From assembly GCA_001708385.1 (NCBI GenBank), contig CP012388.1, positions 1,302,001 to 1,366,000 on the forward strand: DNA of 64,000 nt, written 5' to 3'. The DNA is from Flavobacterium psychrophilum (GTDB lineage: Bacteria > Bacteroidota > Bacteroidia > Flavobacteriales > Flavobacteriaceae). The notes beneath the pieces are model-generated. The model made no database searches and was not told the origin of the DNA. It saw only the letters and a program-made list of their open reading frames with translations. The translations under genes were made by a program, and so were the position numbers. Shown here in pieces: positions 1-50,960 of this stretch. Position 1 is the first letter of the stretch, and every line of letters begins with the position of its first letter.

Positions 1-474
1 GATATCCGTAATTATCCGCAATGGTCTATACATGAAATTTGTACTAAACTAACTTCTGAAAGCAAAGAATTTGCAAAATATATGACGGCAGATCTTAACT
101 ATCCCGGAAAGTTTAATTGGCAACCGCCCTTAAAAACCAAATCAGGGAGAAACGCATATACAGGAAAGGTAATAGTGCTTGTTAACGAAAATACACAAAG
201 CCGTGCCGAATTTACCACTATGGCAATTAAAGCTGCTGCCAACGCAATAATTTTAGGAAGCCAGACAGCAGGAGCCGATGGAGAACTAATTTACGTTGAC
301 CTGCCCGGTGACTTTACAGCTACCTTTACAGGAAACGGAATATTCTATCCTGATGAAAAGGAGACCCAACGCATAGGTATAATGCCCGATGTTGAAATTC
401 GCCCCACCATTGCCGGTATAAAAGCCGGTAAAGATGAAGTATTGAACAAAGCTATTGAAATAGCGAAGAAATAA
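1..474 (+). CDS. S41-type peptidase, C-terminal part (5' truncated by window edge)
   Basis: The frame is open from the first base to the TAA at 472-474, so 157 residues of a longer protein are visible. The stretch GKVIVLVNENTQSRAEF followed by LGSQTAGADGE matches the core of the S41 (C-terminal processing, Tsp/CtpA-like) peptidase fold. In that family the Ser in the xSxAEF position is the nucleophile and the GxxTxG turn supports the oxyanion site. The end, with DV-rich strands and a KAIEIAKK tail, is the usual C-terminus. The first in-frame ATG (82) is internal and not the start. Substrate and location cannot be judged from this fragment; many Bacteroidota homologues are periplasmic or lipoproteins. 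Confidence 0.75.
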   Translation, partial: DIRNYPQWSIHEICTKLTSESKEFAKYMTADLNYPGKFNWQPPLKTKSGRNAYTGKVIVLVNENTQSRAEFTTMAIKAAANAIILGSQTAGADGELIYVDLPGDFTATFTGNGIFYPDEKETQRIGIMPDVEIRPTIAGIKAGKDEVLNKAIEIAKK

Positions 475-616
475 AAAGTAAAAGCGGTTGTCTTAAGAGT
501 TTCGTCCAACGGCTACAATCGAAGGAATCTCACTTTGAGATTCTTCACTTCGCTATCGCTGCATTCAGAATGACACAGCGTTATGGATAATCGCTTTCAA
601 AGACATCCGCTTTATA
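475..616. other. Intergenic region with a repeat and no gene
   Basis: Between two convergent genes. It holds one diverged copy (537-575) of the 39-bp repeat described under the GIY-YIG gene and a short inverted repeat (GAAGGAATCTCA / TGAGATTCTTC, about 520-546). No ORF seen. Confidence 0.6.
537..575 (+). repeat. 39-bp repeat, diverged type B copy
   Basis: It begins GAGATTCTTC and ends AGAATGACA and has the same 39-bp length as the GAGATTTCTC...GAAATGACA repeats at 40.8-42.6 kb, with roughly 60-70 % of positions shared by eye. The end sequences are the conserved part. Confidence 0.6.
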
Positions 617-34426: not shown

Positions 34427-34450
34427 GCTGGCGCGAGCGTCACGCTCGTG
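34427..34450 (+). repeat. REP-like repeat R3 (left flank of RAYT)
   Basis: A 24-bp near-palindrome with central GAGCGTCACGCTC. It lies 6 bp beyond the RAYT stop codon. Its exact reverse complement is R4. Confidence 0.85.
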
Positions 34451-34456
34451 CCCATA

Positions 34457-35005
34457 TTAATTCATATCAATTTTCAAAATTGTACTATCATCGTTTCCGT
34501 AGTTTCTGGCACTGCTATATTTCCAGTCGATAGTGTTAGTAACAAAACCTGTTTCAACCGGATTATAATGAATGTATTGTAGTTTTTGTTCAAAAACACT
34601 CAACGACCAGATTTCTATCGGCTGATTGTTCTGTTGCCAAAATTGCATATTTTCCACATTACTATTTATTTGTCCTGCCCGTTTAAACATCCATAGCAAC
34701 CAATCTTTTCTACTTTCCTGCGGATTTTCAGTAATGAGTTTAATTACTTTTCTTGACGTAAACCCTTTAAAATCTCTTATAAGACCGGACGGATCATTTA
34801 ATGAAGAGCGAAATATCAAATGAATATGGCTGGGCATAATACAGTACCCATAGATTTCCATCCCTTTGTTTTTTCTACAATACTTTAACGAATCTATTAC
34901 GGCAGCAAAATATTCATCTCTCGTAAAAACATCAATCCAATATACAATAGCAAAACTGATAAAGTAGGCTCCATTTTTTTCTCCGAATTTGTATTTTCTG
35001 CTCAT
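34457..35005 (-). CDS. REP-associated tyrosine transposase (RAYT, Y1_Tnp)
   Basis: 182 residues, the size of RAYT/TnpA_REP proteins. They are single-strand DNA endonucleases of the HUH/IS200-like Y1 family that act on REP repeats. HUH metal motif: HIHLIF inside YGYCIMPSHIHLIFRSS. The catalytic Tyr is in the YIHYNP motif (LQYIHYNPVETGFV). The middle block SGLIRDFKGFTSRKVIKLI is also family-like. Start ATG at 35005. It stands alone between exact inverted repeats R3 and R4, the standard RAYT arrangement (its own REP substrates flank it). No terminal inverted repeats or target duplication as in an IS were seen. Confidence 0.92.
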   Translation of the reverse strand: MSRKYKFGEKNGAYFISFAIVYWIDVFTRDEYFAAVIDSLKYCRKNKGMEIYGYCIMPSHIHLIFRSSLNDPSGLIRDFKGFTSRKVIKLITENPQESRKDWLLWMFKRAGQINSNVENMQFWQQNNQPIEIWSLSVFEQKLQYIHYNPVETGFVTNTIDWKYSSARNYGNDDSTILKIDMN

Positions 35006-35061
35006 TTTTCAAATATAAAAATTTTTGTTTTACTATTCTTACATAAATGTGACTATTAAGG

Positions 35062-35085
35062 CACGAGCGTGACGCTCGCGCCAGC
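35062..35085 (-). repeat. REP-like repeat R4 (right flank of RAYT)
   Basis: Exact 24-bp reverse complement of R3, 56 bp upstream of the RAYT start codon. Together R3 and R4 bracket the gene. Confidence 0.85.
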
Positions 35086-39411: not shown

Positions 39412-39482
39412 AAATACTTTACAACTTTAAACCTGAAACCTTAAACAAATTCATTATTTTAGTGGCATCAAAAAACGAACGT

Positions 39483-40727
39483 ATGTTTAGCCTGTTCAGG
39501 GAAAATACAAAGATAGCAATTGATTCGATCAGGAGCCAAATGCTACGAACCATTTTAACGGTATTTATTATTGGCATTGGAATTTTTGCCCTTGTGGGAA
39601 TACTCGCTGCTGTTGCCGTGCTGGAAAGCACCGTAACCAGCAACTTTGCCTCTATGGGTACCAACACATTCTCTATTAGCCGTTACGACAATTCGGCACA
39701 GCTACGCCGCAACAGTGCCGATGTTAAGGTAAATCCTATCATCAGCTATCCGCAGGCCACCGCATTCCAGTCCAAATACAACTTCCCGTCGGCTACAACT
39801 TCGCTGTCATTTACCGCTGCAAGCAATGCCGAGGTAAAACACGAAGGCAAAAAGACCGATCCCGAAATTACTATTGTGGGTGCCGACCAGTATTTCCTTC
39901 CCAATTCGGGACTCGAAGTTACAGAGGGACGAAACTTTAATAATTTCGACATCAGCAATAATAACTATGTGTGTATTGTTGGGTCTGACTTTACAAAAGG
40001 GTTACTGAAAGACATGAATCCGCTTGACAAGGTTATCTCGGTTCGCGGTGCGCGTTTTAAGGTTATCGGCGTACTGAAAGAAAAGGGGTCTACCTTTGGC
40101 AACAGGCAGGATTTACGACTTATCGTCCCTATTCAGGTAGCGCGTTCGCTGTTTACAGCTCCGAATATTGATTATGAAGTAAAGGTAATGATAGGCAACC
40201 ACGACATGCTTAACTCCGCCGTAGACGAAGCCATACTTGCCATGCGCCGCGTGCGTAAGCTAAACCCTGTTGAAGACAGTAACTTCGGCATAGAACGCAG
40301 TGACGAGCTTTTAAAACAGCTATTATCCGAAACACAAACGCTTAACATAGCCGCCTGGGTTATTGGTATTATCACTGTTTTCGGCTCTACTATAGCCTTA
40401 ATGAATATCATGCTGGTATCTGTTACCGAGCGTACCCGCGAAATTGGTGTACGTAAATCGCTTGGCGCTAAAAAGAATACTATAGCACTTCAGTTCTTCA
40501 CCGAAACACTTTTAATAAGCCTTTTAGGTGGAATTGTTGGTATACTGCTTGGTATACTGGTAGTTGCATTGCCGGTATCCATTATTCTAAAAACCAGCTT
40601 TGTAATGCCATGGATGGCTGTTTTTGCCGCTTTTACTACTGTATTTATCGTTACCATCGTTTCAGGATTATACCCTGCAGTTAAAGCCGCCGCGCTTGAC
40701 CCTGTGGAGGCACTGAGATATGAGTAG
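39483..40727 (+). CDS. ABC transporter permease (MacB/FtsX-like)
   Basis: 414 residues from the ATG at 39483 (a longer GTG start at 39462 exists). Four-helix permease: MLRTILTVFIIGIGIFALVGILAAVAVL near the N-terminus, a large periplasmic MacB_PCD domain (residues about 45-270), then three C-terminal helices of the FtsX-like domain (AWVIGIITVFGSTIALMNIMLVSVTERTREIGVRKSLGAKKNTI; LLGGIVGILLGILVVALP). The sequence ends IVSGLYPAVKAAALDPVEALRYE, the normal FtsX-domain terminus. The cognate ATPase is not adjacent, which is unusual. Substrate unknown (lipoprotein, peptide or lipid in the family). Confidence 0.9.
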   Translation: MFSLFRENTKIAIDSIRSQMLRTILTVFIIGIGIFALVGILAAVAVLESTVTSNFASMGTNTFSISRYDNSAQLRRNSADVKVNPIISYPQATAFQSKYNFPSATTSLSFTAASNAEVKHEGKKTDPEITIVGADQYFLPNSGLEVTEGRNFNNFDISNNNYVCIVGSDFTKGLLKDMNPLDKVISVRGARFKVIGVLKEKGSTFGNRQDLRLIVPIQVARSLFTAPNIDYEVKVMIGNHDMLNSAVDEAILAMRRVRKLNPVEDSNFGIERSDELLKQLLSETQTLNIAAWVIGIITVFGSTIALMNIMLVSVTERTREIGVRKSLGAKKNTIALQFFTETLLISLLGGIVGILLGILVVALPVSIILKTSFVMPWMAVFAAFTTVFIVTIVSGLYPAVKAAALDPVEALRYE

Positions 40728-40750
40728 TTAGTTGATGGTAAAGTTTTATC

Positions 40751-40791
40751 ATTTCCGCTGCTAGGGTGAGGGTCACGCTAGCAGCGGAAAT
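40751..40791. repeat. 14-bp perfect inverted repeat (REP-related)
   Basis: ATTTCCGCTGCTAG (40751-40764), 13-nt loop GGTGAGGGTCACG, CTAGCAGCGGAAAT (40778-40791), 23 bp after the permease stop. The loop and inner arms resemble the REP-like core. It lacks a T-run, so it is not a standard terminator. Confidence 0.75.
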
Positions 40792-40825
40792 GAAGTAAAT
40801 GTTTTATTTGAGATTTAAGGCAATG

Positions 40826-40864
40826 GAGATTTCTCCATTCCGCTGCGCTTCAGTCGAAATGACA
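40826..40864 (+). repeat. 39-bp GIY-associated repeat G1
   Basis: Starts GAGATTTCTCCATTCCG and ends CAGTCGAAATGACA; forward orientation. Pairs with G2. Confidence 0.85.
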
Positions 40865-40884
40865 GAAACTAATTCATTGCTGTT

Positions 40885-40923
40885 TGTCATTTCGACCGGA
40901 ATGAAATGGAGTGGAGAAATCTC
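40885..40923 (-). repeat. 39-bp GIY-associated repeat G2
   Basis: Reverse-complement orientation, TGTCATTTCGACCGGAATG ... GAGAAATCTC. G1 and G2 are 20 bp apart; the last bases of G2 are 33 bp before the GIY-YIG ATG, and an in-frame ATG (40906) lies inside G2. Confidence 0.85.
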
Positions 40924-40956
40924 AGAGTAAGTATTAAATTAAGTGAATATCGTTTT

Positions 40957-41265
40957 ATGCTAAAAACATTAGGGACACATAATTATTACGTATATATACT
41001 TACAAATAAAATTAAGAATGTGTTGTATGTGGGTTTTACCAATAGCCTTCCGGAAAGACTGCAATACCATCAAAACCCGGAAGCTAATTCCAAAGCATTT
41101 ACCGCAAAATATAAATGTTGTTATCTGGTTTATTTTGAGCACTATCAAGATGCCGAAACTGGTATCGACAGAGAGACACAATTAAAAAAGTGGAGCCGTG
41201 CAAAAAAAGACGCCCTAATTTCTAATTTTAATCCAGAATGGCGTTTTTTGAATGATGAAATTTGA
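40957..41265 (+). CDS. Single-domain GIY-YIG nuclease (UPF0213/YhbQ-like)
   Basis: 102 residues from the ATG at 40957; a longer in-frame start at 40906 lies inside repeat G2. The GIY-YIG core is present in the YVY/YVG variant (YYVYILTNKIKNVLYVGFTNSLPERL), with the Arg of the active-site helix and Glu in DRETQLKKWSRAKKDALI, and NPEW near the end, as in the YhbQ/UPF0213 group. These are nickase-like nucleases with no settled cellular role. The gene is free-standing, not fused to a DNA-binding part. Its TGA stop at 41263-41265 shares bases with the start of repeat G3, so repeats lie directly at both ends. Confidence 0.88.
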   Translation: MLKTLGTHNYYVYILTNKIKNVLYVGFTNSLPERLQYHQNPEANSKAFTAKYKCCYLVYFEHYQDAETGIDRETQLKKWSRAKKDALISNFNPEWRFLNDEI

Positions 41266-41302
41266 GATTTCTCCATTCCGCTGCGCTACAGTCGAAATGA
41301 CA
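41264..41302 (+). repeat. 39-bp GIY-associated repeat G3
   Basis: Forward copy overlapping the GIY-YIG stop codon. It continues into a 90-bp segment and ends with G4. Confidence 0.85.
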
Positions 41303-41355
41303 AATCGCAATGACTTAGATGATCTCTGCATTTAGCTTCGCTGAACCACTACGTT

Positions 41356-41390
41356 ATGTTTCGACCGGAATGAAATGGAGTGGAGACTAG
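41356..41390 (-). repeat. GIY-associated repeat G4, reverse copy
   Basis: Reverse orientation, ATGTTTCGACCGGAATG ... GAGACTAGAGG. The preceding CTGAACCACTACGTTATG is shared with the copy at about 50.96-51.00 kb. Confidence 0.7.
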
Positions 41391-41471
41391 AGGCTTTAGT
41401 CGACTGGCAAGGCAAATCTCAATTTTGAAATAAAGTAAAAACCTTACCAGATATGTAGATTTGAGGCAATT

Positions 41472-41510
41472 GAGATTTCTCCATTCCGCTGCGCTACAGT
41501 CGAAATGACA
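41472..41510 (+). repeat. 39-bp GIY-associated repeat G5
   Basis: Forward copy identical to G3 by eye; CAAATCGCAATG follows in both. 24 bp on lies a REP-like copy. Confidence 0.8.
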
Positions 41511-41534
41511 AATCGCAATGCATTCAGCCGCGAG

Positions 41535-41558
41535 CACGAGCGTGACGCTCGCACCAGC
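41535..41558 (-). repeat. REP-like repeat R8
   Basis: CACGAGCGTGACGCTCGCAC CAGC, one change from R4, same orientation. Confidence 0.75.
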
Positions 41559-41585
41559 AGAGGGGGAACTGAAACTGAATACTGA

Positions 41586-42434
41586 TCACTGTAGACTCGC
41601 ACCTACCATCCTATCATTACCGTATATATCCTTTTTAAGGACAACGTTGGTAAATCCAAAATTTTCGAGCATTTGTACCGTTTCGGGTCCGAGGTACTGG
41701 TTGATCTCAAAGTACAGTCTTCCGTTTGCCGAAAGGTGAGTTTTTGCGAGCAATGCTATTTTACGGTAGAAAATTAGTGCATCATTATCGTCTACAAACA
41801 GTGCCAGATGCGGTTCGTATTGCAGTACGTTTTCTTTAATTTCTTCTTTCTCAAGGTTTCGCACATAGGGCGGATTCGACACAATAACATCATAAGTCTG
41901 CGGAAGTGTTTCTGCTGCCAGTATATCCTGAAGGATAAAGTTCACCTTTGCGTCATTGTGTTCTGCATTGCGTTTGGCTGTTGACAGTGCGCCTTCGGAA
42001 ACATCTATAGCCGATACCGATGCATCTGTGAGGTTCTTTGCCAGTGAAACAGCAATGCATCCGGAGCCTGTGCCAATGTCTAATAGATTAATCTGACCCA
42101 TATACTGGCTGTCGCCGATGATCCATTCTACAAGCTCTTCGGTTTCAGGACGCGGAATAAGAGTGTTTTCGTTCACATCAAACTCGAGTCCATAAAAGTG
42201 GGCTTTACCAAAGATATACTGAATTGGTTTTTGGGTTTCCAGTTGGGTAACAACGGCATTCCACTTTTCGATTTCTTCACCGCTAAGTTCGGCATCAGGA
42301 TTAATGGCAAGGTCTGACCGCCTCCACCCTTTCAGTTCTTCCAGGGTAATGGCAAAAAAACTCTCAGCCTCCATGCTGTCGTACAGCGGAGTCAGCTTTT
42401 CTATAAAGTATGTACGGTATTCTCTTAATTTCAT
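41586..42434 (-). CDS. prmC: Peptide chain release factor N5-glutamine methyltransferase
   Basis: 282 residues. Methylates the GGQ glutamine of RF1/RF2 with S-adenosylmethionine. The N-terminal helical substrate domain (about 1-75) is followed by the Rossmann domain: motif I LLDIGTGSGCIAVSLA (119-131) and the catalytic NPPY motif (187-190) in VIVSNPPYVRNLEKEEI. ENTLIPRPETEELVEW is also diagnostic. Start ATG 42434. No release-factor gene next to it. Repeat-rich DNA on both sides. Confidence 0.93.
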   Translation of the reverse strand: MKLREYRTYFIEKLTPLYDSMEAESFFAITLEELKGWRRSDLAINPDAELSGEEIEKWNAVVTQLETQKPIQYIFGKAHFYGLEFDVNENTLIPRPETEELVEWIIGDSQYMGQINLLDIGTGSGCIAVSLAKNLTDASVSAIDVSEGALSTAKRNAEHNDAKVNFILQDILAAETLPQTYDVIVSNPPYVRNLEKEEIKENVLQYEPHLALFVDDNDALIFYRKIALLAKTHLSANGRLYFEINQYLGPETVQMLENFGFTNVVLKKDIYGNDRMVGASLQ

Positions 42435-42553
42435 TTTTGAGTTTTCAATTTTTCTGTGATTTAAACTGTATATCGGGGAAATGGAGACTAGAGGCTTTAA
42501 CAGACTAATAAATCAAATTTCTTATTATGAAAATTTATCGTACGTATAAGTAT

Positions 42554-42592
42554 GAGATTTCTCCATTCCGCTACGCTGCAGTCGAAATGACA
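42554..42592 (+). repeat. 39-bp GIY-associated repeat G6
   Basis: Forward copy with one or two changes, in the prmC/GNAT gap. The segment before it (GGAGACTAGAGGCTTTA at about 42483) is also found next to G4. Confidence 0.75.
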
Positions 42593-42606
42593 GAACTACC
42601 AAACAT

Positions 42607-42646
42607 AGAGCAATCCGACAACCGGCAACTATCAACCGACAACCAG
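42607..42646 (+). repeat. CAACC/CAAC-rich repeat
   Basis: CCGACAACCGGCAACTATCA then ACCGACAACCAG, extending into the last codons of the GNAT gene on the other strand. Confidence 0.55.
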
Positions 42647-43123
42647 TTCCGCTAACATCCACACAGGGCAGGAGTTATGGCCAGTGTCACCCATTGGAGC
42701 GTCGAGATATTCAAATCCGCTTTTGCGGTACAGCTTTTGGGCGGCTTCCATATACGGCATAGTTTCGAGGTAGCAGTGGGTGAATCCTTCTGCTTTGGCA
42801 AATGCAAGGCAGGTTTCCATCATTCTGGTTCCGGTGCCTGTGCCACGTGCTTCGGGCAAAAAGTACATCTTTTGCAATTCGCTTATGTGTGCCGGGCCAT
42901 TCTCTAACGGAGCGATACCTGCACCACCTATCAGCACTCCCTCTTTATCTACCACAAAATAAGCCGAGTGTTCTGTCGAATAAGCTTCGAACATACTATC
43001 CAGCGAAGCATCAGCGTATGCCGTACCCACTTTTGGAACGTTGTGTTCTATAAGCACACTGCGTATTAAAGCTGCCATATCGGCATTGTCTTTTTGTTCA
43101 ATTTTTCGGATAATGATGCTCAT
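42632..43123 (-). CDS. GNAT N-acetyltransferase
   Basis: 163 residues. GNAT signature in LPEARGTGTGTRMMETCLAFAKAEGFTHCYLETM (acetyl-CoA-binding V/I-x-x-x-x-R/Q-x-x-G-x-G/A, about residues 92-125), and YRKSGFEYLDAP at the end. Substrate unknown. ATG at 43123. Isolated gene; its last codons overlap a CAAC-rich repeat. Homologues of this type in Bacteroidota acetylate small amines or peptides, not testable here. Confidence 0.85.
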   Translation of the reverse strand: MSIIIRKIEQKDNADMAALIRSVLIEHNVPKVGTAYADASLDSMFEAYSTEHSAYFVVDKEGVLIGGAGIAPLENGPAHISELQKMYFLPEARGTGTGTRMMETCLAFAKAEGFTHCYLETMPYMEAAQKLYRKSGFEYLDAPMGDTGHNSCPVWMLAELVVG

Positions 43124-50892: not shown

Positions 50893-50929
50893 GACATCTC
50901 CATTCCGCTACACTTCAGTCGAAATGACA
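50893..50929 (+). repeat. GIY-associated repeat G7
   Basis: GACATCTCCATTCCGCTACA then CTTCAGTCGAAATGACA, a 37-bp version. It follows the phosphatase stop by 9 bp. Confidence 0.75.
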
Positions 50930-50960
50930 AAACCCATTAATGTATATCTTTTTTAATTAG

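Follow-up and report, generated by a model that had tools for sequence, protein, structure and literature searches.

In a 64,000-nucleotide stretch of the Flavobacterium psychrophilum genome (hereafter the window; assembly GCA_001708385.1, contig CP012388.1, positions 1,302,001 to 1,366,000 of the forward strand), a small stand-alone gene for a GIY-YIG nuclease lies among short repeats that resemble repetitive extragenic palindromes (REPs). Our analysis indicates that this gene is probably one half of a nuclease-repeat pair, whose other half and cognate target would be the TGTC-tagged hairpin that surrounds the gene and is scattered elsewhere, with one repeat family for each nuclease paralogue. 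The analysis shows an association of gene and repeat across genomes, a cognate specificity, covariation of the hairpin, purifying selection on related genes and a turnover of sites at which the elements are present or absent.

To follow the association across genomes we used a profile of 21 homologues, which led to 567 confirmed stretches; the best 80 were retained as named genome loci. A repeat unit was defined explicitly by GTCAT, a stem of at least 5 bp and AT-C. A unit was found within 600 bp of the gene in 73 of the 80 loci, and on both sides in 56. Unit density is 5.78 per kb within 300 bp of the gene, versus 0.08-0.22 per kb beyond 2 kb. The association is also seen without reference to any repeat: in 70 of 77 loci at least one 12-mer is common to both 560-bp flanks (three of the 80, with flanks shorter than 150 bp, were dropped), compared with 9 of 57 pairs of flanks taken at a distance of 3 kb and 578 of 3000 mismatched pairs. 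Neighbouring units less than 120 bp apart are predominantly inverted relative to each other, as CGTC REPs are, and occur in the orientations +- (80), -+ (64), ++ (27) and -- (25). A homologue at E 0.001 is present in 89 of 150 relatives, in 232 of 395 genomes of the phylum sample and in 232 of 398 Pseudomonadota; presence is patchy, some genomes hold at least 12 matches, and interrupted gene copies occur. For Pseudomonadota, 30 loci were taken as the best of the 232 genomes with a match and three truncated loci were dropped; a unit lay within 600 bp in 22 of the other 27, and on both sides in 19.

Genes of a different enzyme class served as a control within the genus. A unit lies within 600 bp of 1 of 29 Y1_Tnp genes, which are of the REP-associated tyrosine transposase (RAYT) type, versus 26 of 29 GIY-YIG genes, and the lone Y1_Tnp gene with a unit nearby looks spurious. 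The RAYT set comprised one locus per genome (52 genomes with a match, 31 loci, two truncated ones dropped) and the GIY-YIG set 30 loci, one of which was dropped. In 12 of the 29 Y1_Tnp loci the flanks have other 12-mers in common, as expected for RAYTs with repeats of their own. Across 62 loci from 19 multi-copy genomes, 45 of 64 GIY-YIG genes have a unit; three sister clades, chosen after the tree was seen, account for 18 rows with just two AT-rich unit hits, and 43 of the remaining 46 rows have units. Taken together, these comparisons show that the link between nuclease and repeat is general.

The number of repeats per genome follows the same trend. Units were counted in 80 of the 91 genomes of the genus (the 11 left out were mostly less complete), each count being capped at 94 scored candidates. 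The median was 37.5 units in the 48 genomes with a strong homologue (E below 1e-16), 6.5 in the 16 with weak homologues only and 1.5 in the 16 with none, and the effect of gene presence gave p 0.00055 by permutation within size classes. Genomes hold far more units than nuclease genes, and some genomes that carry the gene hold one unit or none. As a separate observation, a very small genome of Uhrbacteria (L109, 0.9 Mb) has at least 74 units by model, scoring being capped at 150 candidates.

The specificity of the pairing is best seen where paralogues coexist. Searching this genome with the window protein at E 0.001 gave one further homologue, at genome positions 2505322-2505633 and 77% identical, which lies in an array of a related, distinct unit: its stems are ATTCT/AGAAT or ATCCT/AGGAT versus ATTTC/GAAAT in family 1, with tag and tail unchanged. 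None of the five other PF01541 matches in the genome (601, 500, 470, 459 and 179 codons, the longest being probably UvrC) has a unit within 600 bp. On a tree of 141 proteins (3 of 144 were dropped for stops), with 113 labelled rows after exclusion of two AT-rich labels, stem type changes 50 times; 300 shuffles gave 73.6 changes on average and never fewer than 67. When labels were shuffled only between paralogues within a genome (43 rows from 14 genomes holding two or more paralogues), the 15 changes observed compare with a mean of 23.9, and none of 1000 shuffles was as low. Upstream and downstream stems match in 28 of 30 loci versus 17 of 59 between-locus comparisons inside one genome, and ATTGC stems go with one clade in seven genomes, the other labelled paralogues of which differ in stem. 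Single branches are not to be trusted, because the tree rests on few columns and leaves many forks open. We conclude that each nuclease paralogue pairs with its own repeat family.

Read from its tag end, the unit runs TGTC, AT-NNN stem, GA, N..N', GA, N'N'N'-AT and C. We collected all frames of the form GTCAT-NNN-N(8..12)-NNN-ATC near genes, with pairing not required; 215 of 274 were fully complementary, versus 28.5 expected on re-pairing, and they comprise 13 stem types from 61 loci. At 2-5 kb from genes, 22 of 83 frames were complementary versus 2.6 expected. The inner pair, which lies outside the selection, is paired in 53 of 54 aligned units (GC in 28, CG in 17, AU in 8) and sits within nearly invariant GA...GA steps in the same alignment. 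The outer stem pairs also covary, yet they were part of unit selection. For the whole hairpin of the 54-unit alignment the covariation score is 0.73, compared with 0.22 when shuffled, and the REP unit is a structured element with a covarying hairpin.

The features of the window are collected in Table 1; its units carry the tag TGTC. The 39-bp repeat, with up to three mismatches, is found at 40826, 41264, 41472 and 42554, versus 0 hits in 100 shuffles, and the genome-wide search that the preliminary description had called for gives seven family-1 copies in the 4.14-Mb one-contig genome, these four included. A covariance model reports six units in the 64 kb, namely the same four, G2 at 40885 and the unit at 537, and, for all unit families together, 42 units in this genome. 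The preliminary description had set out a free-standing GIY-YIG gene with an in-frame ATG inside G2 and a stop codon sharing bases with G3, and all of this is borne out (open frame 40906-41265, stop codon 41263-41265). Of the two facing repeat pairs that it placed around the gene, the upstream one stands: G2 keeps the ends and stem of G1 with a different loop, and together they form an inverted dimer. The downstream pair, G3 and G4, is only partial, because all that is left of G4, a G2-type unit, is 28 bp with no intact tag or tail; the covariance model does not report it. Further copies without a nuclease gene were recovered at 41472 and 42554 by both the pattern and the model; the one proposed at 50893 is visible by eye in degenerate form and falls below both. 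The element at 537, which had been taken for a diverged copy of the same repeat, belongs by its stem to the family of the second paralogue.

Table 1. Features of the window discussed in the text (window coordinates).
Feature	Position	Strand	Basis or remark
Stand-alone GIY-YIG nuclease gene, 102 aa	40957..41265	+	likely start 40957; open frame begins 40906
G1, REP unit family 1	40826..40864	-	tag at 40864; covariance model, 31.4 bits; 39-bp pattern
G2, REP unit family 1, other loop	40885..40923	+	covariance model, 32.2 bits
G3, REP unit, overlaps stop codon	41264..41302	-	39-bp pattern and covariance model
G4, degenerate remnant of G2-type unit	41359..41386	+	28-bp identity to G2
REP unit family 1	41472..41510	-	39-bp pattern and covariance model
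REP unit family 1, no nuclease gene there	42554..42592	-	39-bp pattern and covariance model
Degenerate family-1 unit	50893..50930	-	read by eye; in neither 3-mismatch pattern nor covariance model
REP unit, second family (ATTCT/AGAAT stem)	537..575	-	family of the paralogue at genome 2505322-2505633
Permease-like gene, left border of insertion site	39462..40727	+	open reading frame
prmC-like methyltransferase gene, right border of insertion site	41586..42434	-	open reading frame
RAYT gene	34457-35005	-	NF047646

The window protein matches PF01541 (GIY-YIG) at E 4.6e-16, and a Pfam scan gives GIY-YIG families only. Residues Y13, Y24, R34 and E73, which have catalytic roles in the GIY-YIG superfamily, are invariant across the homologue alignment (A1). 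The AlphaFold model (pLDDT, predicted local distance difference test, 92) has UPF0213 as its best fold match (1zg2, E 2.7e-4), followed by Slx1 chains at E 0.014 and above, and the PDB sequence matches at E 0.01 are solely 1zg2 and 1ywl. NCBIfam has no specific family for the protein, its matches falling under the cut-off, and an Rfam scan of 40500-42800 gave no match at gathering score. The genes of relatives are under purifying selection, with a median dN/dS (ratio of nonsynonymous to synonymous substitution rates) of 0.089 in 71 pairs selected at identity 72-98.5% and dS 0.05-2, the window gene being in none of them. Chenal and colleagues (Nature Communications, 2025) are said to have described GIY-YIG nucleases, named Ssn, that reportedly cut only single-stranded DNA at a repeated sequence; the study is said to have started in Neisseria and to cover thousands of homologues and NTS repeats, and an effect on natural transformation was reportedly seen. 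The window gene encodes a UPF0213/Slx1-like GIY-YIG endonuclease, most likely a site-specific single-strand nuclease of the Ssn type.

The nuclease gene sits between the convergent ends of two genes, permease-like and prmC-like by sequence, in a gap of 865 bp. These two genes are adjacent in 20 of the 27 relatives searched; the site comparison leaves aside G036, with a permease end about 1.4 kb off, and six relatives without a permease found. In 19 of the 20 the gap is 9-564 bp long and has no GIY-YIG gene, one of them (G029) having a single unit. The twentieth, G033, has a gap of 834 bp with a GIY-YIG gene of another subfamily (45% identity) and ATTGC units, and it is also the relative with the most similar prmC-like protein (84%). 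The window locus is an insertion of about 0.8 kb relative to the relatives. At two dimer sites in another group of Flavobacterium, units are present, absent or swapped for other palindromes, as judged by eye. The gaps at these sites (loci L303-L314) also contain other palindrome families, namely AACCATATAAGT..ACTTATATGGTT, CCTACAAGGTTTT..AAAACCTTGCAGG and GTAGAGACGCACTGC..GCAGTGCGTCTC. The prmC/permease gap of two relatives contains a TIGR02436 four-helix-bundle gene (L245:2440-2799 and L255:1069-1428, both on the minus strand) lying, by eye, between other short repeats; this is perhaps another gene-repeat pairing. In the window itself, a separate inverted repeat (21 bp, loop of 3 bp; TCATTTCCGCTGCTAGGGTGA, 40749-40793), possibly a terminator, lies just past the permease-like gene. 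The RAYT gene of the window is flanked by a perfect 26-bp inverted repeat (34427-34452 and 35060-35085), the 24-bp core of which has nine window copies with up to three mismatches, one of them (41535-41558) adjoining the GIY-YIG array. The window holds two REP systems side by side.

We also looked at named species, in 13 loci of a plasmid collection that were hand-picked for variety from the matched records (33 in one search, 35 in another). An AT-stem unit tagged CGTC, TGTC or CCTC lies within 600 bp in 11 of the 13 and on both sides in six; the remaining two, from Novosphingobium and Sphingobium, have by eye CGTC-tagged repeats with G+C-rich stems. The Neisseria gonorrhoeae gene, in a 2.17-Mb sequence filed as plasmid, is surrounded by 12 dRS3-type units, six per side, with none from 1 to 2.5 kb; this gene is presumably ssn. 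Its protein and that of the window are 40% identical over 87 aligned positions (E 8e-20, a single comparison). The genes of Azospirillum lipoferum and Sinorhizobium meliloti also adjoin typical CGTC repeats; that of A. lipoferum (L334:2483-2776) lies, with its CGTC repeats, between sufB and sufC. Most plasmid-collection units of Proteobacteria have stems of 8-9 bp, and the tail after AT is mostly CT or CA in Bacteroidota and CCA in many Pseudomonadota units. The gene family occurs beside such repeats in Bacteroidota, in Pseudomonadota and, at a few loci, in Clostridia, Calditrichota, Cyanobacteriota and a candidate phylum.

The preliminary description knew of no described family of this kind, which is probably wrong in view of the Ssn nucleases. 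It is probably wrong for the repeats too, CGTC REPs having been described in 2013 (Di Nocera, De Gregorio and Rocco, PMC3733652). CGTC repeats, as that survey describes them, share with ours a CGTC/TGTC/CCTC tag, an AT-starting stem (which our unit definition, with its GTCAT, itself requires beside the tag), a short unpaired tail, inverted dimers and an occurrence in several phyla including Bacteroidetes. They differ in having stems of 8-9 bp with loops of 4-5, whereas the units here have five pairs, two G.A steps, one more pair and longer loops, and in a tail near CCA instead of ATCT/ATCA. The survey counts A. lipoferum, S. meliloti, N. aromaticivorans and Neisseriae among the carriers, and according to it CGTC repeats are unassociated with transposase genes and apparently without a dedicated one; the survey left open why such repeats (Neisseria dRS3, Rickettsia RPE-4/RPE-6, those of Wolbachia and others) have no enzyme, and its text nowhere mentions 'GIY'. 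The window repeats are REP-like hairpins of the CGTC/TGTC-tagged superfamily.

Several observations weigh against the pairing of nuclease and repeat that we propose. Homologues without repeats, which the preliminary description had held to count against such a pairing, do exist, mainly as the separate sister clades described above, together with 7 of the 80 named loci that have no unit within 600 bp. Repeats in genomes without the gene, its other concern, are not equally abundant, as the medians show, though three of the 16 Flavobacterium genomes without a detected homologue carry 10-22 units (G022 22, G081 21, G058 10), which may be relics or reflect a missed gene or another mover. Two of five covariation measures, pairs changed on both sides and pair types, are not above shuffles. 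Single window units fold as DNA no better than shuffles (z -0.5 to -1.6), a family-2 unit gives z 0.2, and the predicted folding minimum differs from the covarying hairpin; only the G1-G2 stretch 40820-40930, very stable as single-stranded DNA (z -6.5), and a classic CGTC unit (z -4.1) stand out. Standard energy models credit tandem G.A steps little, so that we regard the folding energies as a caveat and not as a refutation. Neither a target-site duplication nor an exact empty site was seen at the window gap or the two dimer sites, which are too diverged for a footprint. The RAYT/REP-like arrangement with an enzyme of a different class, as the preliminary description had it, is strongly supported by the related loci, by the RAYT and sister-clade controls and by the paralogue-specific pairing.

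The nuclease very probably recognises the hairpin repeat; that it also cuts the repeat, prefers it single-stranded and spreads it is what we infer. When a repeat becomes single-stranded, on the lagging strand, in transformation or during repair, the unit or inverted dimer would fold; the enzyme would then read the tag, the stem bases and the tandem G.A steps and nick there. Repair or recombination at the cut could copy repeats into other intergenic sites, often already repeat-bearing ones, and would occasionally carry the gene along with the repeats on either side of it. Spreading of the repeats by the nuclease is in this sense plausible. One can, however, picture a nuclease in the service of the host, with housekeeping or transformation-modulating functions, that trims repeat hairpins and spreads nothing, the nearby repeats regulating its own gene. 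We regard this as possible, if on balance doubtful: the purifying selection among relatives, the units overlapping both ends of the nuclease gene, the predicted Slx1-like fold and the effect on transformation reported for Ssn would all suit it, but the multiple, patchy and interrupted gene copies, the different GIY-YIG subfamilies in the same gap of two relatives and the rise of repeat load with gene presence would not.

That the repeats are moved by a RAYT or by host recombination, and that the GIY-YIG gene merely landed in repeat-rich gaps, is improbable and disfavoured. The gaps are indeed mosaics of several repeat families, the window has a RAYT, and repeat load correlates with RAYT count (Spearman 0.51) versus 0.54 for GIY-YIG count, a further point against our proposal; but RAYT-type genes lack these units and in 12 of 29 cases share other 12-mers in their own flanks, the window RAYT has its own inverted repeat and, like the other Y1 genes of this genome, lies elsewhere than the nuclease gene, and hitch-hiking would not lead one to expect different repeats for different paralogues of a single genome. 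With a unit beside only 1 of 29 RAYT-type genes, a RAYT is disfavoured as the mover of TGTC-tagged repeats. Very unlikely, too, is a small transposon resembling an insertion sequence, with the units as terminal inverted repeats. Units on both sides of most genes and the 0.8-kb insertion point towards it, but the spacing and orientation of units around the genes vary, as do the ends, units far outnumber genes, the Pfam scan shows just GIY-YIG families, and no target duplication was seen at these diverged sites.

More tentatively, the GIY-YIG nuclease could be the partner that the entire CGTC/TGTC REP superfamily has been missing, and its mobiliser, each lineage reading its own stems through a covarying hairpin with G.A steps and spreading dimers and gene by copying, with neither transposase nor reverse transcriptase. 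In that event, to which we give somewhat less than an even chance, there would be a second REP world parallel to that of RAYT and GTAG, run by a nuclease that nicks hairpins where the other has an HUH transposase. Three things may be new: that the repeats match the orphan CGTC REPs, that they form a covarying hairpin containing tandem G.A steps, and that the pairing goes paralogue by paralogue. The gene-repeat pairing in distant bacteria offers an enzyme for a large repeat class previously without one, and genomes in which several paralogues each have a stem of their own are a natural resource for working out the specificity code. If the biochemistry reported for Ssn carries over, such pairs would be a source of single-strand cutters of many specificities.

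A literature search of open-licence PMC papers, without preprints, gave nothing linking GIY-YIG to REP-like repeats among the matches listed. Compared with known enzyme systems, the window protein resembles UPF0213 (1zg2, 1ywl) in its PDB sequence matches and its best fold match, and Slx1, more weakly, in fold. Slx1 is a structure-specific nuclease, and we know of no repeat association of Slx1 or UPF0213 proteins. Slx1 differs in having a RING domain and in working together with a partner, Slx4 (PMC1564403). The catalytic domain recalls that of GIY-YIG homing endonucleases such as I-TevI, and a selfish life style is conceivable; in contrast to I-TevI, target-like units adjoin the window gene and are not interrupted by it. 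As with RAYTs and their GTAG REPs or REPINs, the enzyme gene is flanked by its own palindromes, paralogues are repeat-specific and inverted dimers are dispersed; the system shares this anatomy and yet is no member, because its enzyme is GIY-YIG and not HUH/Y1, and its tag is TGTC and not GTAG. The closest likeness is to Ssn, with a small stand-alone GIY-YIG domain, conserved putative catalytic residues intact and many copies of a cognate repeat, both beside the gene and elsewhere in the genome; what may set ours apart is a Bacteroidota member with a short AT-NNN stem, tandem G.A steps and two paralogues with two repeat families in one genome. The window nuclease most likely belongs to the Ssn family.
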